A stretch of 64,000 nucleotides of DNA, taken from NCBI RefSeq assembly GCF_009753715.1, contig NZ_WQMS01000006.1, forward strand, positions 124,001 through 188,000, read 5' to 3'. Made by a program: the position numbers and the translations under genes. Source of the stretch: Sphingomonas horti (GTDB taxonomy: Bacteria > Pseudomonadota > Alphaproteobacteria > Sphingomonadales > Sphingomonadaceae). Position 1 is the first letter of the stretch. Each line of letters begins with the position of its first letter. The notes beneath the pieces are model-generated. The model searched no databases. It saw nothing but the letters and a program-made list of their open reading frames with translations, and was not told where the DNA came from. Positions 2-50,525 of the stretch are shown one piece after another.

Positions 2-409
2 GCGTCCCACTCGCTCCGACGTCCCGAAGTATACGAAGCGCGAAAAGCACGGCGGGAAATGAGCCTGCCCGAAGTGCTCCTCTGGCAGCGCCTGAAGGGC
101 TCGCCGCAAGGCATCGCCTTCCGCAAGCAACACCCGATCGGCCCTTACCGCGCCGACTTCTACTGCGCCGCCACCAAGCTGATCATCGAGGTGGACGGCA
201 TCGGTCACGACCTGGGCGATCGGCCAGAACATGATGTATACCGAACCGAGAAGCTGGAGAGGCAAGGGTTTAGCGTAGTTCGCGTACTCGCCAGTGACGT
301 TCTGCATGACCCTGATGCAGTGGCTGATAGCTTGGTCGTGCTCGCGTCCAGCCCCCCTCCACCACCGCTTCGCGGTGGTCCCCCTCCCCGTGAACGGGGA
401 GGATCGTAG
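2..409 (+). CDS. DUF559 family endonuclease-like protein, 5' end outside window
   Basis: The frame is open from the first bases of the window. The first ATG is at 59, but residues before it (ending AREMSLPEVLLW) fit the family N-terminus, so the true start probably lies upstream. DUF559 proteins resemble very-short-patch-repair (Vsr-type) nucleases; the core is visible as RADFYC, LIIEVDGIGH and a later RVLASDVLHD segment. Substrate and role are unknown. The last ~19 residues are a Pro/Gly/Arg tail encoded entirely by a palindromic repeat (351-404) and look acquired. The TAG stop overlaps the GTG start of glyS by one base, so the two are translationally close. The usual neighbour of glyS is glyQ, which is not in the window. 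Confidence 0.75.
   Translation, partial: ASHSLRRPEVYEARKARREMSLPEVLLWQRLKGSPQGIAFRKQHPIGPYRADFYCAATKLIIEVDGIGHDLGDRPEHDVYRTEKLERQGFSVVRVLASDVLHDPDAVADSLVVLASSPPPPPLRGGPPPRERGGS
351..404 (+). repeat. Family A palindromic repeat, copy A1 (right half only)
   Basis: Right half of the family A element: a CCCCTCCACC-type arm, a small hairpin (ACCGC-TTCG-CGGT), GGTCCCCCTCCCC, and the terminal hairpin CCCCGT-GAAC-GGGGAGGA. It is read as the proline-rich C-terminus of the DUF559 protein and ends just before the glyS start. Confidence 0.85.
396..402 (+). promoter_or_regulatory. Shine-Dalgarno of glyS supplied by a repeat
   Basis: GGGGAGG lies six bases before the GTG start of glyS and is the terminal arm of repeat copy A1. 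This site and the family-typical N-terminus (PDFLLELLSEEIPARM) fix the start at the GTG. Confidence 0.7.
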
Positions 410-3051
410 TGCCTGATTTTCTCCTGGAGCTCCTCAGCGAAGAAATCCCCGCCCGCATGCAGCCACGGGCGCGGAACGACCTAGCCCGCCTGTTCGAGGC
501 CGAGATCGCCAAAGCCGGCCTGAAGGCCGAACGCATCGAGACCTTCTCGACGCCCCGCCGCCTCGCGCTGATCGCCCGCGGCCTGCCCGACCAGACCGAT
601 GCCGTCCGCGACGAGCTGAAAGGCCCGCGCACGTCTGCTCCCCCCCAGGCGCTCGAAGGCTTTCTGCGCAAGACCGGCCTGACCCAGGACCAGCTCACCG
701 AACGTGATGGCGTGTATTACGCGGTCATCGACAAGCCCGGCCGCGCCACCGCCTCGGTGCTGGCCGAGGCCATCCCGGCGATCGTCCGCGCCTTCCCCTG
801 GCCCAAGTCGATGCGCTGGGGCGCCGCCTCGCAATCGACCGAGAGTCTCCGCTGGGTCCGCCCGCTGCACGGTATCGTCGCGCTCTTGGGCGGCGAGATC
901 GTGCCTTTCGAGATCGACGGCATCGCGTCCGGAGCCGAAACCGTCGGCCACCGCTTCCACCACCCCGGCCGCATCACCATCGGCAGTGCCGACGATTACG
1001 CGGCGAAGCTGCGCGCCTGCCACGTCCTCGTCGACCATGAGGAACGCGAGGCCATCATCGCCACCGGCGCGACGACAGTGGCCGCCCAGGCCGGCCTCAC
1101 CCTCGTCCGCGACGAAGCGCTGCTGCGCGAAAATGCCGGCCTGACCGAATGGCCGGTGCCGCTGCTCGGCAGCTTCGACCCCGCCTTCCTGGAGGTCCCA
1201 CCCGAGGTGATCCAGCTCACCATGGCGACCAACCAGAAATATTTCGCCCTCCTCCAATCCTCCCCTGCATTTGCAGGGGAGGGGGACCGCTCGCCGCAGG
1301 CGAGTGGTGGAGGGGCGGACCCCGGCCTTGAGCCGGGGGACGAGCTCAGTCCTCCGCTTCGCTCCGGCCCCTCCACCGCGTTCGGCGGTCCCCCTCCCCA
1401 AGCAGAGCTTGGGGAGGACTTGAACCTCGCCCCCGCCTTCATCTGCACCGCGAACGTCGAGCCGCGCGACGGCGGGGCGACAATCGTCGCAGGCAACCAG
1501 AAAGTTCTCGCCGCCCGCCTGTCCGACGCGAAATTCTTCTGGGAACAGGACCTGAAGGTCCCGCTGGAGGAGCAGGCGAAAAAGCTCGACCAGATCGTCT
1601 TCCACGAAAAGCTCGGGACGATGGCCGACAAGGTCGCGCGCGTCGCCAAGCTCGCGCGCTGGCTGTGCGAGGAAGGCATAATCAAATCCTCCCCTGCGAA
1701 TGCAGGGGAGGGGGACCATGCGAAGCATGGTGGAGGGGCCCGGAGCGAAGCGGAGGGTGTTTCCGCCCGCTCCGCGGCCGGCCCCTCCACCGCCGGGCTG
1801 GCGCCCGGCGGTCCCCCTCCCCTCGACAAGCGAGGGGAGGACTTGGCGCAGTTGGCCTATGATGCCGCCCGCCTCTGCAAGGCCGACCTCGTCACCGGCA
1901 TGGTCGGCGAGTTTCCCGAGCTGCAGGGCGTGATGGGCGGCTACTACGCGCGCGCCCAGGGCCATCCCGACGCCGTCGCCGACGCGATCCGCGACCACTA
2001 CAAGCCCGTCGGCCAGGGCGACGACGTGCCCACCGCCCCGGTGACGGTCGCTGTCAGCCTGGCGGACAAGCTGGATACTCTAGCAGCGTATTTCTTCTTA
2101 GAAGAGACCCCCACCGGCTCGCGAGATCCGTATGCTCTTCGTAGAGCTGCCCTCTCCCTGATCCGTCTGATCACCGATAACTGGGCTCGCCTTGAGCTCC
2201 TGCCTGTCATCGAACGGCAACTCGATCTAGTGCAATCCTCCTTCGAGGAGGCGGAGCGCAGGCGGACAGCTAGATTGAAGGAACAGGCAGGAGTCGATCC
2301 GGACACCATCGTCATAACCCTAGGTCGTACGACAAGGCCGCACCCTAAGTCAGGCGTGCCATACGACAGCTCTGCATGGCTTCTCCTCGACTTCTTCGCC
2401 GACCGCCTCAAAGTCCAGCAGCGCGAAGCCGGCGTCCGCCATGACCTGATCGACGCGGTGTTCGCATTGGGTGGGGAGGACGATCTTGTCCGCCTGCTCG
2501 CCCGTGTCCGCGCGCTTCAGGCGTTCGTCGAGACGGCCGAGGGCGCCGACCTGCTCGCCGGCTATAAGCGCGCGGCGAATATTTTGAAGAAGGAAGGGTG
2601 GACCGCCACCACCAGTGCTCCTGCGAAAGCAGGAGCCCAGCAGGGCGCGGTACAGGGTGACCTTGGGCTCCTGCTTTCGCAGGAGCACGCGGGAGATATC
2701 CAAGGCATCCCCCAGACCGGCGAGGAAGACCCGTTCGTGATGGCCGAGGATCTGCGCGATGCGATCATGGGCCATGAGAAAACGCTGTCCTACACGCCCG
2801 CACCTGAGGAACAGTCGCTGATCGCGGCGCTCGATTCGGCCGAGCCGCGCGCGCGGGCGGCTGTGGAGGCGGAGGATTTCGAGGCGGCGATGGCGGCATT
2901 GGCGACCCTGCGCGGACCGGTGGATGCGTTCTTTGAGCACGTGACGGTCAACGACCCGGACCCGGCCAAACGGGCTGCGCGGCTGAACCTGCTCGCACGC
3001 ATGCGCGATGCCGTCCACCAGGTCGCCGATTTCTCGCGGATAGAAGGGTGA
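409..3051 (+). CDS. glyS: Glycine--tRNA ligase beta subunit carrying three in-frame repeat insertions
   Basis: Beta subunit of the alpha2-beta2 glycyl-tRNA synthetase, needed with GlyQ to charge tRNA-Gly. Family landmarks: N-terminal PDFLLELLSEEIPARM; LTMATNQKYFAL (~270-281); VLAARLSDAKFFWEQDL (~366-382); LVTGMVGEFPELQGVMGGYY (~495-514); DPYALRRAAL (~571-580); a C-terminal domain ending in a conserved-looking LNLLARMRDAV. At 880 aa it is much longer than usual. Three low-complexity stretches absent from the family account for ~140 residues: ~284-337 and ~427-478 (family A repeats) and ~736-760 plus flanks (family C). Residues ~557-660 also use codons rare in the neighbours (CTA, TTA, AGA, AGG, ATA). 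The frame is intact, so I infer a functional protein. Confidence 0.95.
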   Translation: MPDFLLELLSEEIPARMQPRARNDLARLFEAEIAKAGLKAERIETFSTPRRLALIARGLPDQTDAVRDELKGPRTSAPPQALEGFLRKTGLTQDQLTERDGVYYAVIDKPGRATASVLAEAIPAIVRAFPWPKSMRWGAASQSTESLRWVRPLHGIVALLGGEIVPFEIDGIASGAETVGHRFHHPGRITIGSADDYAAKLRACHVLVDHEEREAIIATGATTVAAQAGLTLVRDEALLRENAGLTEWPVPLLGSFDPAFLEVPPEVIQLTMATNQKYFALLQSSPAFAGEGDRSPQASGGGADPGLEPGDELSPPLRSGPSTAFGGPPPQAELGEDLNLAPAFICTANVEPRDGGATIVAGNQKVLAARLSDAKFFWEQDLKVPLEEQAKKLDQIVFHEKLGTMADKVARVAKLARWLCEEGIIKSSPANAGEGDHAKHGGGARSEAEGVSARSAAGPSTAGLAPGGPPPLDKRGEDLAQLAYDAARLCKADLVTGMVGEFPELQGVMGGYYARAQGHPDAVADAIRDHYKPVGQGDDVPTAPVTVAVSLADKLDTLAAYFFLEETPTGSRDPYALRRAALSLIRLITDNWARLELLPVIERQLDLVQSSFEEAERRRTARLKEQAGVDPDTIVITLGRTTRPHPKSGVPYDSSAWLLLDFFADRLKVQQREAGVRHDLIDAVFALGGEDDLVRLLARVRALQAFVETAEGADLLAGYKRAANILKKEGWTATTSAPAKAGAQQGAVQGDLGLLLSQEHAGDIQGIPQTGEEDPFVMAEDLRDAIMGHEKTLSYTPAPEEQSLIAALDSAEPRARAAVEAEDFEAAMAALATLRGPVDAFFEHVTVNDPDPAKRAARLNLLARMRDAVHQVADFSRIEG
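1258..1418 (+). repeat. Family A palindromic repeat, copy A2, inside glyS
   Basis: Complete element. In order: TCCTCCCC hairpin closing on GGGGAGG, GGGGACC, a short hairpin (CTCGCCGCAGGCGAG), GGTGGAGGGGC, a variable centre, GGCCCCTCCACC, a second short hairpin, GGTCCCCCTCCCC, and a terminal hairpin ending GGGGAGGA. It is translated without a stop (starting SSPAFAGEGD) and sits between YFALLQ and the APAFICTANVE segment, which are normally almost adjacent in GlyS. Confidence 0.9.
1687..1841 (+). repeat. Family A palindromic repeat, copy A3, inside glyS
   Basis: Second complete family A element in glyS, with the same nested-arm order as A2 and read in the same frame (starting SSPANAGEGD, ending LDKRGED). 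It interrupts the segment between LARWLCEEGI and AARLCKADLVTGMVGEF. Confidence 0.9.
2615..2688 (+). repeat. Family C palindromic repeat, copy C1, inside glyS
   Basis: Two perfect hairpins, GCTCCTGC-GAAA-GCAGGAGC (2617-2636) and GCTCCTGC-TTTC-GCAGGAGC (2667-2686). They are reverse complements of each other around a short spacer. Translated in frame between ANILKKEGW and EEDPFVMAE of GlyS. Confidence 0.9.
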
Positions 3052-25680: not shown

Positions 25681-25833
25681 TCCTCCCTCGCTTGCGAGGG
25701 GAGGGGGACCGCGCGAAGCGCGGTGGAGGGGCCCGGAGCGAAGCGGAGGGTGGCTTCCGTCGGCTCCGCCGCCGGCCCCTCCACCACTCGCCTCCGGCGA
25801 GCGTTCCCCCTCCCCGAGCCAGCTCGGGGAGGA
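25681..25833 (+). repeat. Family A palindromic repeat, copy A4
   Basis: Complete element: TCCTCCCTCG hairpin, GGGGGACC, GCGCGAAGCGCG hairpin, GGTGGAGGGGCC, centre, GGCCCCTCCACC, a CTCGCC-TCC-GGCGAG hairpin, CCCCCTCCCC, and a terminal hairpin ending GGGGAGGATTT. It fills the gap between the ligase gene and glpX; its terminal Ts overlap the glpX stop codon. Confidence 0.9.
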
Positions 25834-32257: not shown

Positions 32258-32408
32258 TCTCCTCGGCGGTGCCGGGGGGGCGCGCCGCGGAGCAGCGTGG
32301 TGGAGGGGCTGAGCGCGCAGCGCGAAGTAAGGGCCCTCCCTTCGCGACGGCCCCTCCACCACTCGCCTTCGGCGAGCGGCCTCCCTCCCCTGCAAAAGCA
32401 GGGGAAGA
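32258..32408 (+). repeat. Family A palindromic repeat, copy A5
   Basis: Nearly full element with a degenerate left end. GGTGGAGGGGC, centre, GGCCCCTCCACC, CTCGCC-TTC-GGCGAG hairpin, CTCCCTCCCC and the terminal hairpin ending GGGGAAGATTT are clear. It lies after the UrcA terminator and stops two bases short of the lytTR regulator stop codon. Confidence 0.85.
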
Positions 32409-32413
32409 TTTGA

Positions 32414-50375: not shown

Positions 50376-50381
50376 TTCAAA

Positions 50382-50525
50382 TCCTCCCCCAGCTCGCCGG
50401 GGATAGGTCGCGCATCGCGCGCGGTGGAGGGGCGTCGCGAAAGCGACGAACCCAAACCTCCGCTTCGCTCCGGCCCCTCCACCAGGCTTCGCTTGGCCCC
50501 CGTCCCCTGCTAGCGCAGGCGAGGA
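50382..50525 (+). repeat. Family A palindromic repeat, copy A6
   Basis: Full-length but diverged element: AAATCCTCCCCC end, GGTGGAGGGGC, centre containing CTCCGCTTCGCTCCGG, GGCCCCTCCACC, GGCCCCCGTCCCC, and a terminal arm ending GAGGATTT. It separates glpK (minus) from the AI-2E transporter (plus), and its left arm forms the glpK ribosome site. Confidence 0.88.

Follow-up and report, generated by a model that had tools for sequence, protein, structure and literature searches.

Palindromic elements read in frame within glyS of Sphingomonas horti and other Sphingomonadaceae, and their association with DUF559 nuclease genes

Palindromic repeats that are read as part of protein genes are known from Rickettsia. 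The Rickettsia palindromic elements (RPEs) are about 150 bp long, fall into several families and lie in frame in unrelated protein genes (PMC10969869); those of R. conorii end with CGTC (PMC3733652). REPs of the GTAG and CGTC types have likewise been found in frame in named genes, and recB of two Xanthomonas species carries differing REPs at about the same site (PMC3733652). In REPINs, a short spacer separates two inverted palindromes and the target is not duplicated, one RAYT enzyme gene is found beside the same repeats, and differing repeats go with differing enzymes (PMC3116915). A 2013 survey of REPs assigned no dedicated transposase to the CGTC repeats of Alphaproteobacteria (PMC3733652). 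The glyS locus of Sphingomonas horti shares traits with each of these systems: palindromic elements are read in frame in the gene, and an element of one of the same families, with a DUF559 gene between its halves, lies directly upstream.

The window analysed here is a stretch of 64,000 nucleotides (C22:124001-188000 of genome G000, which comprises 3.35 Mb in 25 contigs). glyS, encoding the beta subunit of glycyl-tRNA synthetase (880 aa; PF02092, 1e-175), occupies positions 409-3051 on the + strand and starts with GTG. The earlier note had described three palindromic repeats translated within this gene without a stop or frameshift, and its coordinates prove exact to the base: 409-3051 is a single open frame, with A elements at 1258-1418 (161 bp, +) and 1687-1841 (155 bp, +) and a third element at 2615-2688 (+), all in frame. 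The A copies are bounded by TCCTCCCC...GGGGAGGA and, as had been claimed, share a frame, giving the peptides SSPAFAGEGD and SSPANAGEGD. The third element, assigned to a family C in that note and called K here, contains GTGCTCCTGCGAAAGCAGGAGC and its inverse. K is rare in this genome (three places); in the relative G033 it is dispersed, and glyS of G033 carries K at a different site. The statement that two unrelated repeat families occur in one gene holds, as does the statement that the inserts split segments that are normally adjacent: in an alignment with the solved GlyS beta chains 7yse, 7eiv and 8ie2, the segments flanking the inserts adjoin.

Several simpler accounts of the inserts fail. 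That they are conserved GlyS sequence is rejected by alignment with related GlyS, from which the insert segments are absent as conserved sequence. The genome has neither a second glyS nor a dimeric glycyl-tRNA synthetase that could be the copy expressed instead. Assembly error as a general explanation is ruled out by the presence of in-frame GlyS inserts in 35 separate genomes. Residues ~605-650, which lie beside the insert sites, were considered as a fourth insert and rejected, their folding energy being ordinary; this segment is non-palindromic and highly variable in length, from 0 to ~90 residues.

Numbered on the insert-free GlyS of G002, the three inserts occupy a beta-turn after residue 283 (site 1), a loop between helices of the HD domain after residue 377 (site 2), and a linker after residue 579 (site 3). 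The earlier note had proposed structure modelling to see whether the inserts fall in surface loops. In an AlphaFold2 model of GlyS built with 45 homologues (mean pLDDT 82), pLDDT falls below 50 at residues 296-335 (site 1), between strands E279-283 and E340-348; at residues 430-468 (site 2), between helices H405-421 and H474-489; and at residues 736-789 (site 3), between helices H710-728 and H799-820. The flanking strands and helices are well predicted in all three cases, and the top Foldseek matches of the model are GlyRS structures. In the model, all three inserts are thus disordered loops. The HD domain of E. coli GlyS comprises residues 341-540 (PMC8464048), and these limits, together with the alignment to the solved chains, place site 2 within it.

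The A family is found throughout the genome. Forty-eight copies could be delimited, with boundaries TCCTCCCC...GGGGAGGA, and the core pattern of the family has 38 forward and 38 reverse matches, against 0 for a control pattern. Each element is built of two inverted halves around a short middle, and each half consists of a terminal palindrome and an inner hairpin. The sequence of the inner hairpin varies but its pairing is kept: 40 distinct sequences occur over 72 half-elements, of which 68-69 are closed, mostly with a three-base GNA loop. A G-T mismatch at the fourth pair, seen in 25 of the 72 hairpins, could hint at a Vsr-like enzyme; it is not counted as evidence because, among 22 arms from other genomes, it recurs in only 2. 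Direct repeats indicative of target-site duplication are absent from the flanks of the 48 copies. Elsewhere in the window, A or A-like copies lie at 25697-25815, 32274-32413 and 50376-50477. Rfam matches in four loci were to miRNA and sRNA models, with scores far below gathering thresholds and on the palindromes.

Seven genes of G000 contain A elements as part of their reading frame: glyS (twice), valS, murD, rnr, ligD, a phaC-like hydrolase gene and the terminase large-subunit gene terL (the last six at L280, L286, L294, L287, L008 and L275, respectively). Pfam confirms the families of the proteins except the phaC-like one, which Pfam does not match and whose name rests on its sequence. The remaining copies are intergenic or at gene ends. 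A stop-free reading is not rare by itself, since no stop interrupts 199 of the 270 readings of A copies; what is rare is that all eight insertions in these seven genes are free of stops and keep the phase of the flanking gene. This result bears on the idea that the inserts are not translated at all, being skipped by the ribosome or removed in the manner of bypassed segments. The strong mRNA hairpins would suit bypassing, yet bypassing would not require a frame, and the GlyS inserts examined, like all eight A insertions here, are stop-free and in frame. We regard bypassing as very improbable.

The earlier note was correct that glyS is a carrier of such elements, but the picture was incomplete: besides the six other genes with in-frame A, glyS itself is a recurrent landing site across Sphingomonadaceae. 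In an alignment of 75 GlyS sequences or fragments, inserts recur at three sites. A tree of 70 of these rows, obtained by a quick search on insert-free columns, has a site-2 insert in 35 rows (32 full inserts and 3 remnants). With family labels assigned by hand-made patterns, no fewer than eight palindromic families are represented at site 2 (A, B, C, D, P, V, K and H). On the tree, the families do not cluster: A occurs in 7 rows with 7 changes, P in 6 with 6, and V in 6 with 6. At site 2, the loops of the close relatives L112 and L130 are filled by different families. Because the families are unclustered, this loop has been invaded many times independently. Site 1 can be followed through several states, from the ancestral turn DAGGKL (G001) to a full A element (G000), a shorter A (G004) and a bare terminal hairpin (G005). 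A strict caller found 22 elements in 35 glyS genes, although it missed 25 further ones in the glyS interval, against one in-gene element in ~305 kb of neighbouring genes plus the window, glyS excluded.

These data weigh against one ancient insertion per site that was inherited and diverged, the families being old variants of a single insert. What speaks for such descent is that A-type site-2 inserts of several genera share SSP...GED ends. However, the families show no sequence relationship to one another and correspond to different dispersed repeats, the close pair just mentioned differs at the same loop, and the GlyS tree rejects common descent of a single insertion. It is accordingly disfavoured, and we give it hardly any weight.

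The inserts could also be functional, as an added loop that binds tRNA or other RNA or as mRNA hairpins that control translation, in which case recurrence would reflect selection and not tolerance. About half of the genomes have a site-2 insert of one family or another, and the mRNA of the inserts folds very stably (about -0.4 to -0.8 kcal/nt), which speaks for such a role. But the other half has none, closely related pairs differ, the peptides of different families have no sequence in common, and the same A elements occur in unrelated proteins. A function for the inserts therefore seems improbable, and landing in permissive loops accounts better for the pattern.

A few further observations concern the GlyS sequences. 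Four site-2 inserts (L064, L094, L134 and L141, from G004, G034 and two relatives) open with a sequence that resembles a tRNA or tmRNA 3' end (GGGGGTTCAAATCCCTCCAGCGCTACCA or a close variant); the in-frame reading is GGSNPSSAT, and two of them have weak Rfam tmRNA matches. The draft assembly of G005 (L066/L132) breaks within glyS at site 2, so that repeats at this point may conceal or divide the gene in drafts. A literature search of open PMC papers found no report of palindromic inserts in sphingomonad glyS.

Directly upstream of glyS lies an A element of another kind. Its whole length is 457 bp (C22:123948-124403, +); the left half lies outside the window, upstream of position 1, and positions 1-403 are the part within it. 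The order is left A half, DUF559 gene, right A half, and the element separates glyS from glyQ, a gene identified by its C-terminal sequence. The DUF559 (PF04480) domain covers 35-334 (+), and its frame continues through the right A half (347-403, +, the inverse of the left half) to a stop TAG at 407-409. Positions 396-411 (+) hold the element end GGGGAGGA, then TCGTA, then the glyS GTG. The element therefore ends five bases before the glyS start, the DUF559 stop and the GTG overlap by one base (TAGTG), and the Shine-Dalgarno-like GGAGG of glyS is provided by the terminal GGGGAGGA. In G033, which belongs to another genus, two high-copy repeats lie directly upstream of glyS (C1:1790830-1791048; L093, 3831-4048), and the glyQ-glyS spacer may be a landing zone too.

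The arrangement of a DUF559 gene between inverted palindromic arms recurs at other loci. All five DUF559 genes of G000 have it, with four arm families; at L104 and L105 the arms are of the same repeat family. Among sphingomonads (53 genomes), inverted arms within 400 bp at E <1e-4 flank 89 of 127 DUF559 loci; the controls gave 1 in 63 (small genes) and 3 in 300 (random intervals). Across Alphaproteobacteria, 18 of 29 loci are armed. Arms are not detectable at 38 of the 127 loci, of which eight form a conserved chromosomal subfamily (L267-L274); none of these eight is armed and their flanking sequence is common between genera, making the subfamily an internal control. Of two loci at contig edges, L198 is armed and L203 is not.

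The arm family follows the nuclease clade. In a DUF559 tree of 122 rows and 108 columns (quick search), a single clade of 36 rows (SH-aLRT 99) takes in all 21 A-armed and all six A2-armed genes and has no B-, C- or D-armed member, and the arm labels require 41 changes against a mean of 73.5 when shuffled. Of the 26 genomes with A-clade DUF559, 23 have A elements; of the 35 without it, 10 do (P=5e-6). Three 447-bp DUF559-A elements of G076 are 89-98% alike and 0.6-2 Mb apart; as they also share ~40 bp of flank, they may have inserted into a repeat of the host or been duplicated along with it. The link extends to GlyS, where 33 of 76 segments tested match DUF559 arms, in six genomes those of the same genome; P, V, H and K inserts had no arm match among the segments tested. 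In the open PMC papers searched, none was found that links DUF559 to palindromic repeats.

DUF559 has the sequence features of a nuclease. A profile of 30 domains has E13, E52, D54 and H58 invariant and D41 and D67 nearly so. Against the PDB, it matches 3hrl at 5e-35, the 'mobile intron protein' 3r3p at 1.7e-5, and Vsr (1cw0) at only 0.12. We take 3r3p to be I-Bth0305I, a homing endonuclease of Vsr-like fold. The conserved acidic and histidine residues, together with a structural relative of known fold, agree with a PD-(D/E)XK or Vsr-like assignment, as described for VsrA of Caulobacter, which is a DUF559 protein (PMC12907096). No RAYT or Y1 transposase (PF01797) candidate is found in G000, and a RAYT is rejected as mobiliser there; 13 of 61 relatives are positive. 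DUF559 is the likely mobiliser of A elements, as the co-distribution of nuclease and arms suggests.

DUF559 could instead be a passenger, a homing-type gene that inserts in the middle of palindromes already there, which another enzyme moves or which originate in some other way, the GlyS inserts then being ordinary REP-like repeats. The position of the gene in the centre of the element, the similarity to a homing endonuclease, which fits insertion into a fixed target, and the A-rich genomes in which no A-clade DUF559 was found (G017, G018 and G006) are all compatible with this idea. However, a single nuclease clade goes with a single arm family across 26 genomes and other clades go with other arms, A copy number follows the presence of the clade, and no other mobiliser candidate was found in G000. 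A passenger role is unlikely on these grounds, if the most serious competitor to mobilisation by the nuclease.

We favour, with a probability of about 0.7, the reading that the GlyS inserts are mobile palindromic elements without a gene of their own in permissive loops, and that A is the short form of a DUF559 element mobilised by the nuclease. In such a scheme, the full version would consist of left half, DUF559 gene and right half, and A would be its gene-less form. The nuclease, of Vsr/homing-endonuclease fold, may act on the hairpin-forming arms or on the target, making a break whose repair would copy the full or the short element without target duplication, by analogy with REPINs and their RAYT, an unrelated enzyme. 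Short elements would in this way have landed in permissive loops of an essential protein, and would persist there thanks to junctions that, by chance, left the frame open. Translation would turn them into disordered loops, ~25-55 residues long and with a high content of Gly, Pro, Ser, Asp and Glu. Most insertions in genes would be lost, and those that are in frame, stop-free and loop-sited would remain, as the frame, loop and recurrence data suggest. glyS probably owes its place as a favoured survivor to several exposed loops that lie away from the active site; it may have been struck so often because these loops tolerate inserts and, once occupied, allow replacement. More broadly, DUF559 genes with matched arms would be mobile elements spread by a Vsr/homing-type nuclease in place of a transposase and widespread in Alphaproteobacteria, their gene-less forms being the short palindromic repeats found in these genomes and an ongoing source of new protein loops, with glyS as the main site; we incline to this wider proposal, at little better than even odds.

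Rickettsia is not alone in writing palindromic repeats into essential proteins: in free-living sphingomonads the process continues. With its many independent insertions, glyS is a natural experiment in how proteins gain loops. DUF559 becomes a testable candidate for the mobiliser of palindromic repeats in genomes that lack RAYT; the arm families tied to it are A, B, C and D, and any role for it with the alphaproteobacterial CGTC repeats would be hypothetical.

The comparison with RPEs, drawn in the earlier note, stands as an analogy. Both are sets of palindromes (~100-150 bp for the trait that A shares) in several families, read in frame in unrelated protein genes. However, the sphingomonad elements are high in GC, their hosts are free-living, and the A, B, C and D families are tied to DUF559 genes; one gene, glyS, is struck repeatedly at the same loops across genera; and the 48 A copies end in TCCTCCCC/GGGGAGGA and not in CGTC. 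Host lineage and base composition also differ. The inserts work like RPEs but, by these traits, are probably not RPEs. With REPINs, A shares the inverted pair of palindromes with a short spacer and the pairing of enzyme and repeat, but the enzyme is DUF559 and not a Y1 tyrosine transposase, its gene lies inside the repeat pair, and GTAG-type REP ends are lacking. Intragenic REPs resemble the present elements in being read in frame, and P-type GlyS inserts have CGTC/GACG at their ends; here, however, one loop of one gene has received at least eight families in many genera. The nuclease resembles Vsr-like and I-Bth0305I-type mobile-intron endonucleases through its match to 3r3p, but is flanked by palindromic arms and does not reside in an intron or intein. 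Like MITEs, A is a short element with terminal inverted repeats and a longer relative that bears a gene; unlike them, it has no target duplication, and no classical transposase was found in the longer form. The proposed DUF559-armed element fits the locus, with inverted arms of one family around the gene and an arm family that follows the nuclease clade.
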